IMG/VR virus record: IMGVR_UViG_3300028024_000181
Coordinates: 1-50,700 of that record
From: a virus
Direction: 5' to 3' (one strand)
Length of the DNA: 50,700 nucleotides
The notes under the pieces are model-generated. The model saw nothing but the letters and a program-made list of their open reading frames with translations. It searched no databases and was not told the origin of the DNA. The translations under genes were made by a program, and so were the position numbers. Every line of letters begins with the position of its first letter. The first letter of the stretch is position 1. This document shows positions 4,742 through 50,700 of this stretch, piece after piece.

Positions 4742-4977
4742 TGTTTGCTCTCCGGTGCGTTGTGGACGCGGCCTTCGTTGTTCGCGATGAATTCCTTCAA
4801 GGCGACCAACATGTCTGCGCGTTCCGCATTGCTGATGTAGTTCATTCGGCCGCCGTTGCCGTCGAGTGGGAATATGAAGAGCGCGAAGCCGTATCCCTTG
4901 AAAATATTGGCCATGACGGCGGCGACATCGTTCATCGACTTCCGGTGCTGCGGCTCGATCTCTCGGTGGTTGCTCAT
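4738..4977 (-). CDS. Hypothetical small protein
   Basis: This 79-residue protein is not recognised. It has the segments VAAVMANIFKGYGFALFIFPLDG and RADMLVALKEFIANNEG, which look like a small alpha/beta fold. The hydrophobic middle is too short and broken to be a confident membrane span. It overlaps the Cys-rich gene upstream and the GTG-start gene downstream by 4 nt each. Confidence 0.65.
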   Translation of the reverse strand: MSNHREIEPQHRKSMNDVAAVMANIFKGYGFALFIFPLDGNGGRMNYISNAERADMLVALKEFIANNEGRVHNAPESKQ

Positions 4978-5171
4978 TGGTGTTCCTCAAATAGGTCGGT
5001 CTGCGCCGCTGCATCGACGTGCTCCGGACAGCGGTGCAGATCGGCGCCGACCACCTGTGCGTGCTTCGCACACAGGTGCCTGTCGCACGTCCTGCCGGCC
5101 CTTGTCGGGTAGTCGCACTGGAAGCCGCTCGGTGCATTGCAACCGTCGACAGAGCAGCGGGGCGCACGCAT
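4974..5171 (-). CDS. Cys/His-rich putative zinc-binding protein
   Basis: This 65-residue protein has a dense metal-binding pattern: C6, C11, C19, then C29-x2-H-x-C-x2-H and a final CPEH. A pair of treble-clef or B-box-like zinc sites would fit. Similar small proteins ending in a CPEH motif recur in phage early regions without known function. The gene lies wholly within the 3' part of the Avd-like reading frame (4987-5541) in a different frame. The Cys/His pattern argues that this frame is the translated one here. Its stop overlaps the next gene by 4 nt. Confidence 0.7.
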   Translation of the reverse strand: MRAPRCSVDGCNAPSGFQCDYPTRAGRTCDRHLCAKHAQVVGADLHRCPEHVDAAAQTDLFEEHQ

Positions 5172-5541
5172 GCGGCCGCGCGTGCAGACGATTCGGGCGG
5201 TTAGCGGCCCACTCCCTCCACTTAACAGCCTGTTTGCTGATGCTCTCCGTCAGACGGATCACGGACCAATACTGACGGTCCGTGATCTCATTCAAGTCCC
5301 ACGCAAGACGGAAAAGCGACTCGACGATCTTTACGCGCTCGATCAGCTGGGACAGGTGCGGTACCTTGTCCTCGGCGACATTGGCGCGATAGACGAGAAT
5401 CAGCAGTCGCTTCATCTCTTCGACGATATCCTCGCCGATCAATCGCCTGAACGAGCGTTCCATGTTTTTGACGATGCCTGTGACCTTCTTGAAAAGGTCA
5501 AATCCCGTCTTGTACACGTCGAGTTCGGTGTGGAGGGCCAT
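4987..5541 (-). CDS. avd: Avd-like four-helix-bundle protein (DGR accessory factor)
   Basis: Residues 1-115 look like the four-helix-bundle family that includes Avd, the accessory variability determinant of diversity-generating retroelements, and the 23S rRNA intervening-sequence proteins. Key parts are the basic helix after residue 28 (RSFRRLIGEDIVEEMKRLL) and the family-typical end ESLFRLAWDLNEI followed by SISKQAVKW. In known DGRs Avd forms a barrel-shaped pentamer that binds the reverse transcriptase and template RNA. It lies 13 nt after a gene ending in a variable-repeat sequence, the usual DGR order. Beyond about residue 120 the frame becomes Arg/Pro/Cys-rich and overlaps the Cys-rich gene completely, so this tail is probably not native. 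No clear ribosome-binding site is seen. Confidence 0.75.
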   Translation of the reverse strand: MALHTELDVYKTGFDLFKKVTGIVKNMERSFRRLIGEDIVEEMKRLLILVYRANVAEDKVPHLSQLIERVKIVESLFRLAWDLNEITDRQYWSVIRLTESISKQAVKWREWAANRPNRLHARPHACAPLLCRRLQCTERLPVRLPDKGRQDVRQAPVCEARTGGRRRSAPLSGARRCSGADRPI

Positions 5542-5554
5542 AGTGGCTAAATGA

Positions 5555-6022
5555 TTAAATTACTGAAGGAATAAATCTGCTGACGGCGACCCCGCGGAGC
5601 TCAGCGCTCTTGAGGAGGCTGATCTGGAGGCCGTAGAAGAAGTTCTGACACCAGGCGGAAGCTGGATTGCCCTCATAGTCCTCTTCGAGCCACATGCTCC
5701 CCTCGGCGCAGAACTCCGGGAATGTGGCCTGCAAGAGACGTCCTTCGCGGCGATTGGGGAGCTTGAGGTCGCGATCGCCAACATATGCCTTCGCGGCGTC
5801 GTGATTGACATCGGTAGCTTCGCCCGTGTGCAGGATCAGGTAATAGTCGAGCGAACCGTCTTCCTTGAAGATCGGTCCGGCGACGCGTGCGCCGCTTGGG
5901 AGCGGGATCACCGTCCGCTCGATGACATACTCGGTGGCGATGGCTTGCTGCTTGAACTGCTCGATTAGCGCGCCGATGCGTGCATGTTCGGACTCGATGT
6001 GATCCAGTGTGACGTGGGACAT
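5555..6022 (-). CDS. DGR-type variable protein 1
   Basis: This 155-residue protein ends in the pattern SAWCQNFFYG...KSAELRGVAVSRF, which matches the C-terminal part of DUF1566-like C-type-lectin folds that DGRs diversify (compare a generic W-x-Q-x-F-x-x-G ... R-x-V-R-x-F). The last about 31 residues are encoded by a repeat shared with the upstream gene. Relative to that copy, substitutions fall in ten residues. There is no signal peptide, so it is probably cytoplasmic or a virion component. I chose the ATG at 6022 because it has a GGAGAG site about 7 bases upstream. The Avd-like gene follows after 13 nt. The ligand is unknown. Confidence 0.72.
   Translation of the reverse strand: MSHVTLDHIESEHARIGALIEQFKQQAIATEYVIERTVIPLPSGARVAGPIFKEDGSLDYYLILHTGEATDVNHDAAKAYVGDRDLKLPNRREGRLLQATFPEFCAEGSMWLEEDYEGNPASAWCQNFFYGLQISLLKSAELRGVAVSRFIPSVI
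5574..5667 (-). repeat. Variable-repeat-like copy 1 (VR1)
   Basis: This 94-bp segment at the 3' end of the first variable gene aligns without gaps to 6071-6164. The promoter-distal 37 bp are identical and the rest carries 13 mismatches. All 13 are in codon positions 1 or 2 of the coding strand and none is in position 3. In ten of them one copy has an adenine, and the other three are compatible with a lost adenine. This is the signature left by adenine-specific mutagenic homing from a template with AAY codons. Confidence 0.8.
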
Positions 6023-6060: not shown

Positions 6061-6420
6061 TCAAATAGTGAATCTGCTGACGGCGACCCCGCGGAGCTCA
6101 GCGCTCTCGTGGTTGCCGTACTGGCCGCCGTAGTAGCAGTTCTGATACCAGGCGTAAGCTGGATCCCAGTCGACATCGTCGTCGGTCCAGTAGGCCTCGG
6201 GCTTTACGAGATCGCGGTGCTCGTTGTAGATCACGAGAGCGTCGATGCGGTTGTACAGAACGCCGCCGACGCTCTTTGCCCAGTCACGCTGCAGATCGCG
6301 CGGCAGGCGCTTGTCGTTCACGGCGATCAGCACGGTGTGCTCGACATCGCCGTGTTTATTGATGCGGCCGTGCAGATAGATTTGGCCCTCTGCAACGGGC
6401 GGAAGTTGGAGTTGTTGCAT
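6061..6420 (-). CDS. DGR-type variable protein 2
   Basis: This 119-residue protein is a shorter relative of the next gene downstream. It ends in AYAWYQNCYYGGQYGNHESA and then ELRGVAVSRF, the presumed surface loop and core strand of a small C-type-lectin-like domain. A tryptophan-containing YWTDDDVDWDP segment precedes the variable part, as in DUF1566-like proteins. No signal peptide is present. Translation starts at an ATG with a strong AAGGAG site 6 bases upstream. An intrinsic terminator lies only about 15 bases before the start codon, so expression probably depends on read-through or antitermination. Confidence 0.72.
   Translation of the reverse strand: MQQLQLPPVAEGQIYLHGRINKHGDVEHTVLIAVNDKRLPRDLQRDWAKSVGGVLYNRIDALVIYNEHRDLVKPEAYWTDDDVDWDPAYAWYQNCYYGGQYGNHESAELRGVAVSRFTI
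6071..6164 (-). repeat. Variable-repeat-like copy 2 (VR2)
   Basis: This is the partner of the repeat at 5574-5667, with 81 of 94 positions identical. In coding sense this copy has adenine at seven of the mismatched positions (for example TAC, TAT and AAC codons) while the other copy has it at three. Neither copy is therefore the parental template, and both look like variable repeats derived from a third sequence. I found no such template elsewhere in the window by eye. Confidence 0.8.
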
Positions 6421-7983: not shown

Positions 7984-10169
7984 GCAGCGGCCGGATTGAG
8001 CGGGCGCCTGATCGTCGGTTTGGCGCCGTCGACGAGCGGCATTTCGGTCGCCGCCGTGCTGTTCGCGGGAGCAGATTTTTTCACTGCAATCTTCTCCGCG
8101 CTCGCCGGTGGCGGAGCCGTTTTTGTCGCTGCCGGCTTTTTAACTGGCGAAACTTTCTTCGCGACCTTGCGTGCGGGCGCAGCTACGGCGGCCGCCGCCG
8201 GTGACGGCGCATCGTCCACACGCGTGGGCTCGGCGATCTTCTTCGCGCCGCGCTTCGGCGGGGCCTTCTGCTTGGCAGCCTTTACCACCGGCGGCGTTTG
8301 GGGACGAAGCAGGGCAGGCAGCCAGCCGGTATCGGAGAGCAACTCCTCGGCTTTCTCAGCGAGCTCGGCCTTTTTGAGCTTGTCGACGTGCTTGATGCCG
8401 AGCTCGCCGGTGCCGACCTCTTCGAGTGCTTCGATGATTACCGGCTTGGCCACCTGGCCGAGAAAGGACTTGCGCGTCGGTTGCCACCAGTCGGCCATGT
8501 TCAGCCCGATAGCCTCCTCGACGTGCTCGAGTGGCCGCGAGTGATCATTGCTGGTGGTGGTATTGATGCAGGCCGCCGTGCAGAACGCCAGCAGCTCGAC
8601 AACTTCCACCACCTCGCGCTCGGCCACCCATGCAAAAAGCTTCGCCGGATCCTCGGGCAATTCGGTCTGCAATTGCGAGCGGCGTTCGGTGAGCGCTGCC
8701 CACGCCTTGCTTTGCTCCATGTCGTCCGCGCTGGACGCGAGGTTCGTGAGCTGCTCGGTCGGCACGATGGAGAGACCGCCTGATCCGTAATAACCGTTGT
8801 AGATCACCTTCGCGAGCAGCGTGGAGCACAGCAGATCGAGCGCCACGCGCGGTGCTTCGAGCAGATGAGCAGACATGGCGGCCGAGCGGTTCGCCGTGAG
8901 TTTGCGCAGCAGAACTTCGCTGTAGGTGACCTTTTCCGGTTCGACGGCTTCGCCAGCAGCAACGCGCTTCTCACGCTCGGCTTTTGCCTTGGCCTTCTCT
9001 TTTTCGGCCGCCACCTTCGGGTCGATCATGCCGCGATGAATCTCGAGACTGCCATGATGGTTGATGCCGATCACGGCGCCGGCCGACTTCTTCTGGCGAT
9101 CAGTGAAGGTTTCAAGCGAGCTTTTGATCAGCTTGATGCGGTAGAACGCCTTCTCCGCGCGATGATTAAGTTCCTCGACCTCTCCGGTCGTAAGCTCATC
9201 GTCTTCGTCATCGTTGACGGCATCGGTGGCCGCGCGCGCAGTTTCTTCCAGCGTGGTGATCTCTGTCTTTTCTTCGTCCGTAAGTCCGCGCACCTTCGGC
9301 TTGCTGCGGCCATAGGCATTCGTTTCGTTCCAGCCGAGTTCCGGGTAGATCTTCACAAACGACCAGCCCTCTGCACGCAGTTCGGTAGCCGCAGCTTCCA
9401 GCTTCTCCGCGGCGAGCCGTTGCATCAGCGCCATGTCGGCGACGTAGCCGCTGTCCGGACCGCCGAAGAGATCGCGCAGCACGGTCCCGCCAGCGGCTTC
9501 GTATGCGTCAAGGCCGACGAACTTCGCCGCGCGGACGCTCGACGCATCCGTTTTGCCCTTGGTCAGTGCCTGCCGCAGAGAGTCCGCATGTTTATAGAAC
9601 TGCGATGCGCCGTACCAAACCTTGCATTGCAATGCCTGATCATCGGTGAGCGTGAAGGCCTGCAACTGCTCGAGGTTCATCCCGCCCTTGCGATAGATCT
9701 CGACCAGTTCCGGCGCCACCTTGGCCAGCAGCAGGCGGCGTTGCACGACAAGCGGCGTGCAGCCGAATTGCGCGGCGATATCCTCGACCGGCGAGCCTTC
9801 CTCGAAAAGCACCTTGAACGCGTAGAACTCGTCGGCCGGGTGCATCGGCGCGCGCCCGGTGTTTTCCGCCACGCTCGCGGCGAGCGCACGATCTGGAGTG
9901 GTGAGCAGGCAAAACACGGGGTGGTCCGCCGGCACCTTGCCCTGTTGCTCGAGCAGCTTGAACGCGCGATATCGTCGGCCGCCGCCGACCACGCCGTAAT
10001 TGCCGTCTTCCGGGATGGTGATCAGATTCTGCAACTGGCTCTGTGACTCCAGCAAAGCGGCGAGCTCAGATACATCGCTCGTATCGTTCGGGCGTGCATT
10101 CAGCGGCGAGATATGCAGCTTGTTGAGCGGCACCGTAATGAGTTGGCCGTCGACGGTCTGTTTTTTCAT
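7962..10169 (-). CDS. Large ParB/RepB-domain protein
   Basis: This 735-residue protein begins with a ParB/RepB/Spo0J-type nuclease-like domain: ITVPLNKLHISPLNARP, then a GNYGVVGGGRRYRAFKLL box near residues 60-80. An AENTGRAPMHPADEFYAF box and a KorB-like helix-turn-helix (VEDIAAQFGCTPLVVQRRLLLAKV, about residues 130-155) follow. The long middle is helical. The last about 110 residues are a Lys/Ala/Pro-rich, histone-H1-like tail likely to bind nucleic acid without sequence preference. Proteins of this kind are known from plasmids and large prophages. No ParA partner is present, so a partition role is doubtful and DNA processing or transcription control is an alternative. The start at 10169 avoids a non-homologous N-terminal extension. 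Confidence 0.85.
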   Translation of the reverse strand: MKKQTVDGQLITVPLNKLHISPLNARPNDTSDVSELAALLESQSQLQNLITIPEDGNYGVVGGGRRYRAFKLLEQQGKVPADHPVFCLLTTPDRALAASVAENTGRAPMHPADEFYAFKVLFEEGSPVEDIAAQFGCTPLVVQRRLLLAKVAPELVEIYRKGGMNLEQLQAFTLTDDQALQCKVWYGASQFYKHADSLRQALTKGKTDASSVRAAKFVGLDAYEAAGGTVLRDLFGGPDSGYVADMALMQRLAAEKLEAAATELRAEGWSFVKIYPELGWNETNAYGRSKPKVRGLTDEEKTEITTLEETARAATDAVNDDEDDELTTGEVEELNHRAEKAFYRIKLIKSSLETFTDRQKKSAGAVIGINHHGSLEIHRGMIDPKVAAEKEKAKAKAEREKRVAAGEAVEPEKVTYSEVLLRKLTANRSAAMSAHLLEAPRVALDLLCSTLLAKVIYNGYYGSGGLSIVPTEQLTNLASSADDMEQSKAWAALTERRSQLQTELPEDPAKLFAWVAEREVVEVVELLAFCTAACINTTTSNDHSRPLEHVEEAIGLNMADWWQPTRKSFLGQVAKPVIIEALEEVGTGELGIKHVDKLKKAELAEKAEELLSDTGWLPALLRPQTPPVVKAAKQKAPPKRGAKKIAEPTRVDDAPSPAAAAVAAPARKVAKKVSPVKKPAATKTAPPPASAEKIAVKKSAPANSTAATEMPLVDGAKPTIRRPLNPAAAWPFPTD

Positions 10170-50130: not shown

Positions 50131-50700
50131 ATGTCACCCGAAACGCTCGCCGCGGCGCTGCAGATTCCGCTCGCCCGTGCTTCCCTATGGGCCGATCCAC
50201 TGTCGGCCGCGATGGCGCTGTATGAGATCGATACACCAGCTCGCCAGGCAGCCTTCCTCGCGCAATGCGGCCATGAATGCGGTCGATTCCAGTGGCTCCG
50301 TGAACTGTGGGGGCCGACATCGGAACAGAAGCTGTACGAGCCGTTCACACCGAAGTCTCGCGCGTTGGGCAATACGACCGATGGTGATGGTTTCAGATAT
50401 CGCGGCGGCGGCCTGCTCGGCATCACCGGTCGTTACAACTTCCGGGTGATGGGCCAGAAGATCGGCTTCGATCTCGAGGCGAACCCTGATCTCATCGTGC
50501 GTCCCGACGTCGCATCGCTCGCGTCAGCGCAATTCTGGGCCGACCGCAACTTCAACGCATACGCCGATGCAGGCCAGTTTCTGACGCTGAGCCGGGCCAT
50601 CAATCTCGGCAATCCAAACAGCACGGCGCCGCCGAACGGCATGGACGATCGCGAGCAGCTCTGGACGAGTTGCAAGGCTGCGCTCGGCGTCACCGACTGA
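50131..50700 (+). CDS. GH19 family endolysin
   Basis: The 189-residue product contains the glycoside hydrolase 19 (chitinase/lysozyme) signature: AAFLAQCGHECGRFQWLREL, with Glu in GHECG as catalytic acid. GFRYRGGGLLGITGRYNFRVMGQ follows, then LSRAINLGNP. Such enzymes cut peptidoglycan during host lysis. No signal peptide is present, so export depends on the holin-like protein upstream. The stop is the last base of the window, and spanin genes, if any, are outside. Confidence 0.93.
   Translation: MSPETLAAALQIPLARASLWADPLSAAMALYEIDTPARQAAFLAQCGHECGRFQWLRELWGPTSEQKLYEPFTPKSRALGNTTDGDGFRYRGGGLLGITGRYNFRVMGQKIGFDLEANPDLIVRPDVASLASAQFWADRNFNAYADAGQFLTLSRAINLGNPNSTAPPNGMDDREQLWTSCKAALGVTD

Follow-up and report, generated by a model that had tools for sequence, protein, structure and literature searches.

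The Avd-like gene and the two variable repeats (VRs) in virus record IMGVR_UViG_3300028024_000181 are best explained as a recently decapitated and now frozen DGR, that is, the front half of a Burkholderia phage Magia-type element after a deletion of about 1.4 kb. We put the probability of this reading at roughly 0.8. The window analysed here is the complete IMG/VR record of 50,700 bases, and its nearest relative is a prophage of Paraburkholderia sediminicola LMG 24238 (locus L010), to which the features of Table 1 were compared. An initial annotation, made from the letters of the DNA, had seen an Avd-like gene beside variable repeats in the gene order of a DGR, had found neither a reverse transcriptase (RT) nor a template (TR), and had proposed either that both were deleted and the repertoire frozen or that an RT elsewhere in the cell acts in trans. 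The observation held, with a correction to the extent of Avd; of the two explanations the first is supported, with a qualification on how unusual such a loss is.

Table 1. Cassette features in the window (positions in the 50,700-base record)
Feature	Position	Strand	Remarks
VR1 target gene	6061..6420	-	119 aa; 82% aa identity to first target gene of L010
Variable repeat 1 with 3' conserved IMH-like end	6072..6163	-	By comparison to L010 TR
VR2 target gene	5555..6022	-	155 aa; 84.5% aa identity to L010
Variable repeat 2 with 3' conserved IMH-like end	5575..5666	-	By comparison to L010 TR
Avd, 116 retained codons, four-helix bundle	5194..5541	-	95.7% aa identity to L010 Avd
Deletion junction, Avd codon ~116 joined to 5'-truncated zinc-finger-like gene	5192..5194	.	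L010 alignments
Read-through tail of Avd ORF, out of frame	4987..5193	-	Outside native Avd; ORF total 184 aa
Z, Cys/His-rich zinc-finger-like ORF	4974..5171	-	65 aa; homologues' first codons missing

Adenine-restricted repeats and their target genes

The VR1 gene, the VR2 gene and Avd follow each other on the minus strand, close to the integrase end of the record, and both target genes are coded away from the tail genes. Compared with the L010 TR, VR1 mismatches at 9 of 28 adenine sites and VR2 at 13 of 28, and each repeat mismatches at only 1 of the 64 other sites, which is the same site in both (63/64 agree). Between VR1 and VR2 there are 13 differences at adenines of the L010 TR and 0 at its 64 other sites (hypergeometric p 1.7e-8). 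All 13 differences are at codon positions 1 or 2, and the 3'-terminal 36 nt of the two repeats are identical. The pattern against the TR, together with the differences between the repeats, indicates that the VRs were written by adenine mutagenesis from a TR of their own type. Each VR has 1 non-adenine mismatch to the L010 TR and at least 5 to every other of the 129 TR regions examined. The last writing of the VRs thus used an own-type template, as would be expected if the phage's own TR acted before it was lost.

What kind of proteins are the targets? The VR1 target gene gave no match in Pfam, PHROG and NCBIfam searches, and its homologues are the first target gene of intact relatives. For the VR2 protein, an AlphaFold2 model (pLDDT 81.3) combines an N-terminal helix with a C-type-lectin-like domain; its best PDB match is the C-terminal domain of Legionella Lcl (8q4e, E 0.018), and the other matches listed are mostly C-type-lectin-like folds, none of them below E 0.001. 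The model suggests a small, possibly oligomeric binding protein. Two genes of this target family are given as potential DGR targets in the Magia paper (PMC7883833). Just upstream of VR1, two minus-strand proteins (window 7725-7294 and 7216-6707) look secreted by eye, with a hydrophobic N-terminus and, in the first of them, a glycine/serine-rich sequence; the DNA of the pair is conserved in L003 and L010, and the proteins have no PHROG match.

A truncated Avd and the absence of RT and TR

The initial annotation placed Avd at 4987-5541. The part from about 5541 to 5194 is a real Avd, and the remaining 207 bases or so are read-through in another frame: the ORF owes its length of 184 aa to an out-of-frame continuation into the DNA of the next gene, while the Avd of relatives has 113-129 aa in 46 of 47 cases. 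The match to PHROG 3206 ('Avd protein of DGR') covers residues 1-116 of the ORF, with E 1.7e-21. The scores against NCBIfam DivGenRetAVD (E 1.4e-8) and Pfam bAvd (E 1.2e-5) are under the family cut-offs, and the L010 Avd, which adjoins a TR and an RT, likewise scores under the cut-offs of both databases. The AlphaFold2 model is a four-helix bundle (pLDDT 92.8), and its best PDB matches include the Avd of phage BPP-1 (4dwl) and a DGR RNP (8ub7). The Avd of the window is genuine, truncated and then extended; after the loss it would be a left-over without known partner. A search of PDB with the Avd sequence profile returned almost nothing but designed ankyrin proteins, which were taken as chance; the fold comparison led to BPP-1 Avd. 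Pfam 23S_rRNA_IVP had no match in the window or in any control and is uninformative.

For the RT, a profile search of the 50.7-kb record with RVT_1 gave no match, while 3 of 14 control genomes were positive in the same search. When the TR-RT segments of two relatives were used as blastn queries, the two VRs were the only hits apart from chance matches 14-24 bases long, and no remnant of TR or RT appeared. No third TR-like copy was found either, the best stretch of the window beyond the two VRs having 28 non-adenine mismatches in 64 to the L010 TR. So of the parts expected in a functional DGR, the record has adenine-confined VRs and an Avd, and has no RT and no TR. Within the record this is the state of a DGR remnant, adenine-type VRs being kept and RT and TR lost, as in certain Treponema denticola strains.

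Does the record end too early to contain the RT? PHROG matches were obtained for terminase, portal, protease, major head protein, sheath, tape measure and hub, and also for baseplate, tail fibre, integrase and endolysin. Since structural, terminase, integrase and endolysin genes are all matched, the DGR was lost outside any visible wholesale decay of the phage. In P. sediminicola a 17-bp repeat occurs at 50357 and 103190, the latter copy inside a tRNA-Ser gene, and this att-like pair suggests the ends of the prophage. Judged by these repeats, the record may be without about 2.6 kb of its right end, which could be the sole place within the prophage for a hidden RT. The right end in P. sediminicola has no RT; the single RVT_1 match of that genome is the RT of the cassette itself.

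A fusion junction inside Avd

Patches collinear with L010 occur all along the window, from integrase to endolysin, and the cassette of L010 is complete in the order VR1-VR2-Avd-TR-RT. In L010 the TR (8519-8610) and the RT ORF (8353-9714) come directly after Avd. The alignment of the window to L010 ends at window 5194, inside Avd, and restarts at 5192, inside gene Z. It is this fusion, together with the TR and RT present at exactly this place in a collinear relative, which supports the proposal of a deleted RT-TR part and a frozen repertoire.

The position of Z differs among relatives. In L010 the homologue has 84 aa and is upstream of VR1 (L010:6829-7083); in L015, from Caballeronia calidae and identical in sequence to L127, it is directly after RT, and in L082 and L119 it is further downstream of RT. 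Z therefore moves around the cassette. In L015, with the order Avd-TR-RT-Z, 1,401 bp separate the two junction points, a spacing consistent with a single deletion that took out the end of Avd, TR, RT and the beginning of Z. Because Z stands before VR1 in L010, the one-step deletion rests on the order of the more distant L015. A derivation of the window from the L010 order was set aside, as it needs several rearrangements, while a single deletion suffices when the order of L015 is the starting point. In a variant of this event that is just as local, a neighbour segment bringing its own Z would have replaced the cassette segment.

The junction also bears on the suspicion that the phage has TR and RT and that the contig skips over them by an assembly or binning error. 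There is a single virus record, and the DNA pattern of the junction had no match in other viral contigs, which speaks for an artefact; however, the junction joins Avd to the natural neighbour of RT seen in L015 and not two copies of a repeat, and assembler skips would be expected at the VR and TR repeats, away from this point. We consider an artefact very unlikely. The missing match among viral contigs also means that there is no sister with the same deletion in which freezing could be checked directly.

RT loss among relatives

How often is the cassette intact in relatives? Among 398 Burkholderiaceae genomes, Avd searches found 29 loci in 27; in the L010 genus, with 144 genomes searched, they found 17 loci in 15. 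Combined, these are 41 distinct loci in 37 genomes. A full-length RT frame is present at 37 of the 41, and the RT is broken or replaced at the other 4, in three genomes. In L027 the RT frame is split; in L033 and in the identical copies L048 and L051 (one genome), only a C-terminal piece of RT remains behind an unrelated ORF. No second RT of this family was found in the three genomes with broken RT. All 13 loci of a separate scan of genome contigs carry a full-length RT frame. Viral contigs yielded 173 relatives, of which 80 were retained, and some of these overlap loci counted earlier; in these 80 the RT frame is full in 77, off the contig in 2 and split in 1. The idea that RT loss would be unusual for a phage is thus weakened by the 4 of 41 genome loci, and it survives in so far as none of them is the same clean deletion from Avd to the next gene.

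Some side observations concern the broken loci. The ORFs that replace RT in L033:200-1520 and L048:700-1720, from two different genomes, are related and share the motif WATMAEQNANR. They look like phage HNH-type homing endonucleases, a resemblance that Pfam did not confirm. Possibly the RTs of DGRs have been repeatedly invaded by a mobile endonuclease. In L131:5654-6729 the RT is in two frames beside an intact Avd, either because this cassette too is broken or through a sequencing error. One genome has two Avd loci, L061 and L066, that are identical over 2,275 bases and unrelated beyond, possibly from recent duplication or from recombination between prophages.

The repeats of the relatives show the same signature. 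At 107 of 121 loci there are two VRs with at most 6 non-adenine mismatches each, with a mean mismatch of 48% at adenine sites and 0.3% elsewhere, and at 96 of these 107 there is no non-adenine difference between both VRs; the non-adenine figures are biased low, as the stretch with the fewest such mismatches was picked as VR. The remaining 14 loci have no second VR within the limit of 6, and some of them are broken or cut. The loss in the window looks recent, because its non-adenine VR sites are as clean as in intact relatives. This impression comes solely from unchanged sites and is not a date; an attempt to date the loss through non-adenine drift was abandoned, because intact loci mostly show zero as well.

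Might the Avd-like and lectin genes simply function without any RT, being no DGR relic at all? VR1-family genes are found in L007-L009, records without RT (and without Avd in the stretch examined), and the Avd fold is, by structure comparison, common to S23-family four-helix proteins. Against this stand the adenine-restricted variation, at the p value given above, and the regular company of RT at the genome Avd loci and throughout the genome-contig scan, and we regard it as extremely improbable. In L009:8001-9320, within a 27-kb viral record, three VR-family genes stand in tandem, with no RVT_1 match and no Avd within the stretch examined; the VR gene family may occur outside DGRs as well, or the L009 record may be a fragment.

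Another possibility is that the cell contains a further DGR prophage, whose RT and TR still write VR1 and VR2 in trans. The VRs, their identical 3' ends and Avd being intact is in its favour, and several genomes (G014, G161, G164, G478) have two Avd loci of this family. For BPP-1, a plasmid with avd-TR-brt edits a target placed on a second plasmid, and RT, Avd and TR are each required for editing (PMC12875486). Two-Avd genomes and editing between separate plasmids make writing in trans mechanistically possible, and the donor would need a near-identical TR. However, the VRs have bases of their own type, the next-best of the 129 TR regions having 5 non-adenine mismatches per VR against 1 for L010, so no other TR type seen here overwrote them. 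The genomes of the three broken-RT relatives, with no other RT of this family, also argue against it. On balance we consider a trans donor unlikely. Still more doubtful is a satellite-like DGR, in which a phage with targets and Avd only would borrow the template and RT of another prophage.

Discussion

The frozen front half of a Magia-type element may have arisen as follows. The ancestor would have had VR1-VR2-Avd-TR-RT, followed by the small zinc-finger-like gene. As the VR pattern shows, the intact element copied its TR into both lectin-like target genes and made random changes where the template has adenines. A single illegitimate deletion, put at about 1.4 kb from the junction and the spacing in a relative, would then have removed the last codons of Avd, the TR, the whole RT and the first part of the gene that follows. 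With TR and RT gone, no new variants can come from this prophage alone, and VR1 and VR2 would therefore be frozen. The last-written repeats would drift or be selected as ordinary genes.

Which known systems come close? The DGRs of phage Magia (NC_070954) and L010 share with the window the order VR1-VR2-Avd, homologous targets and Avd, and a region beside the integrase; in both, Avd is directly followed by TR and RT, of which the window has neither. Magia is a myophage according to its authors (PMC7883833), and a tail sheath gene is among those of the window. The DGR of BPP-1 resembles the window in its Avd fold and adenine-restricted VRs, with avd before TR-RT as in the ancestor of the window. 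It differs in having TR and RT, and its target is a tail fibre, whereas the targets in the window are two small lectin-like proteins. Its gene order is mtd-avd-TR-brt.

Left-over VR targets are already known. In Treponema denticola strains without core DGRs, the VR targets remain while RT and TR are gone, and the authors, who call them leftovers, describe VRs that differ from the TR of relatives mainly at adenines (PMC4891356). The targets there are bacterial, many with lipoprotein signals, and do not belong to a prophage; in the window, unlike that case, the deletion junction is visible and Avd is retained. Among open-licence full texts no paper was found on this record or on a Magia-type prophage without RT. 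The window is a further well resolved case of left-over targets, this time in a prophage and showing the deletion itself.

What does the remnant mean for this phage family? It is a clean natural knock-out of a phage DGR, with a readable junction and a close relative that has the whole cassette. Sister isolates, if they exist, would show whether VRs stop changing after RT loss and what selection acts on the frozen lectin-like targets. As RT breakage recurs in this family, at several genome loci and in three genomes, the loss of DGRs becomes something that can be counted, beyond anecdote.
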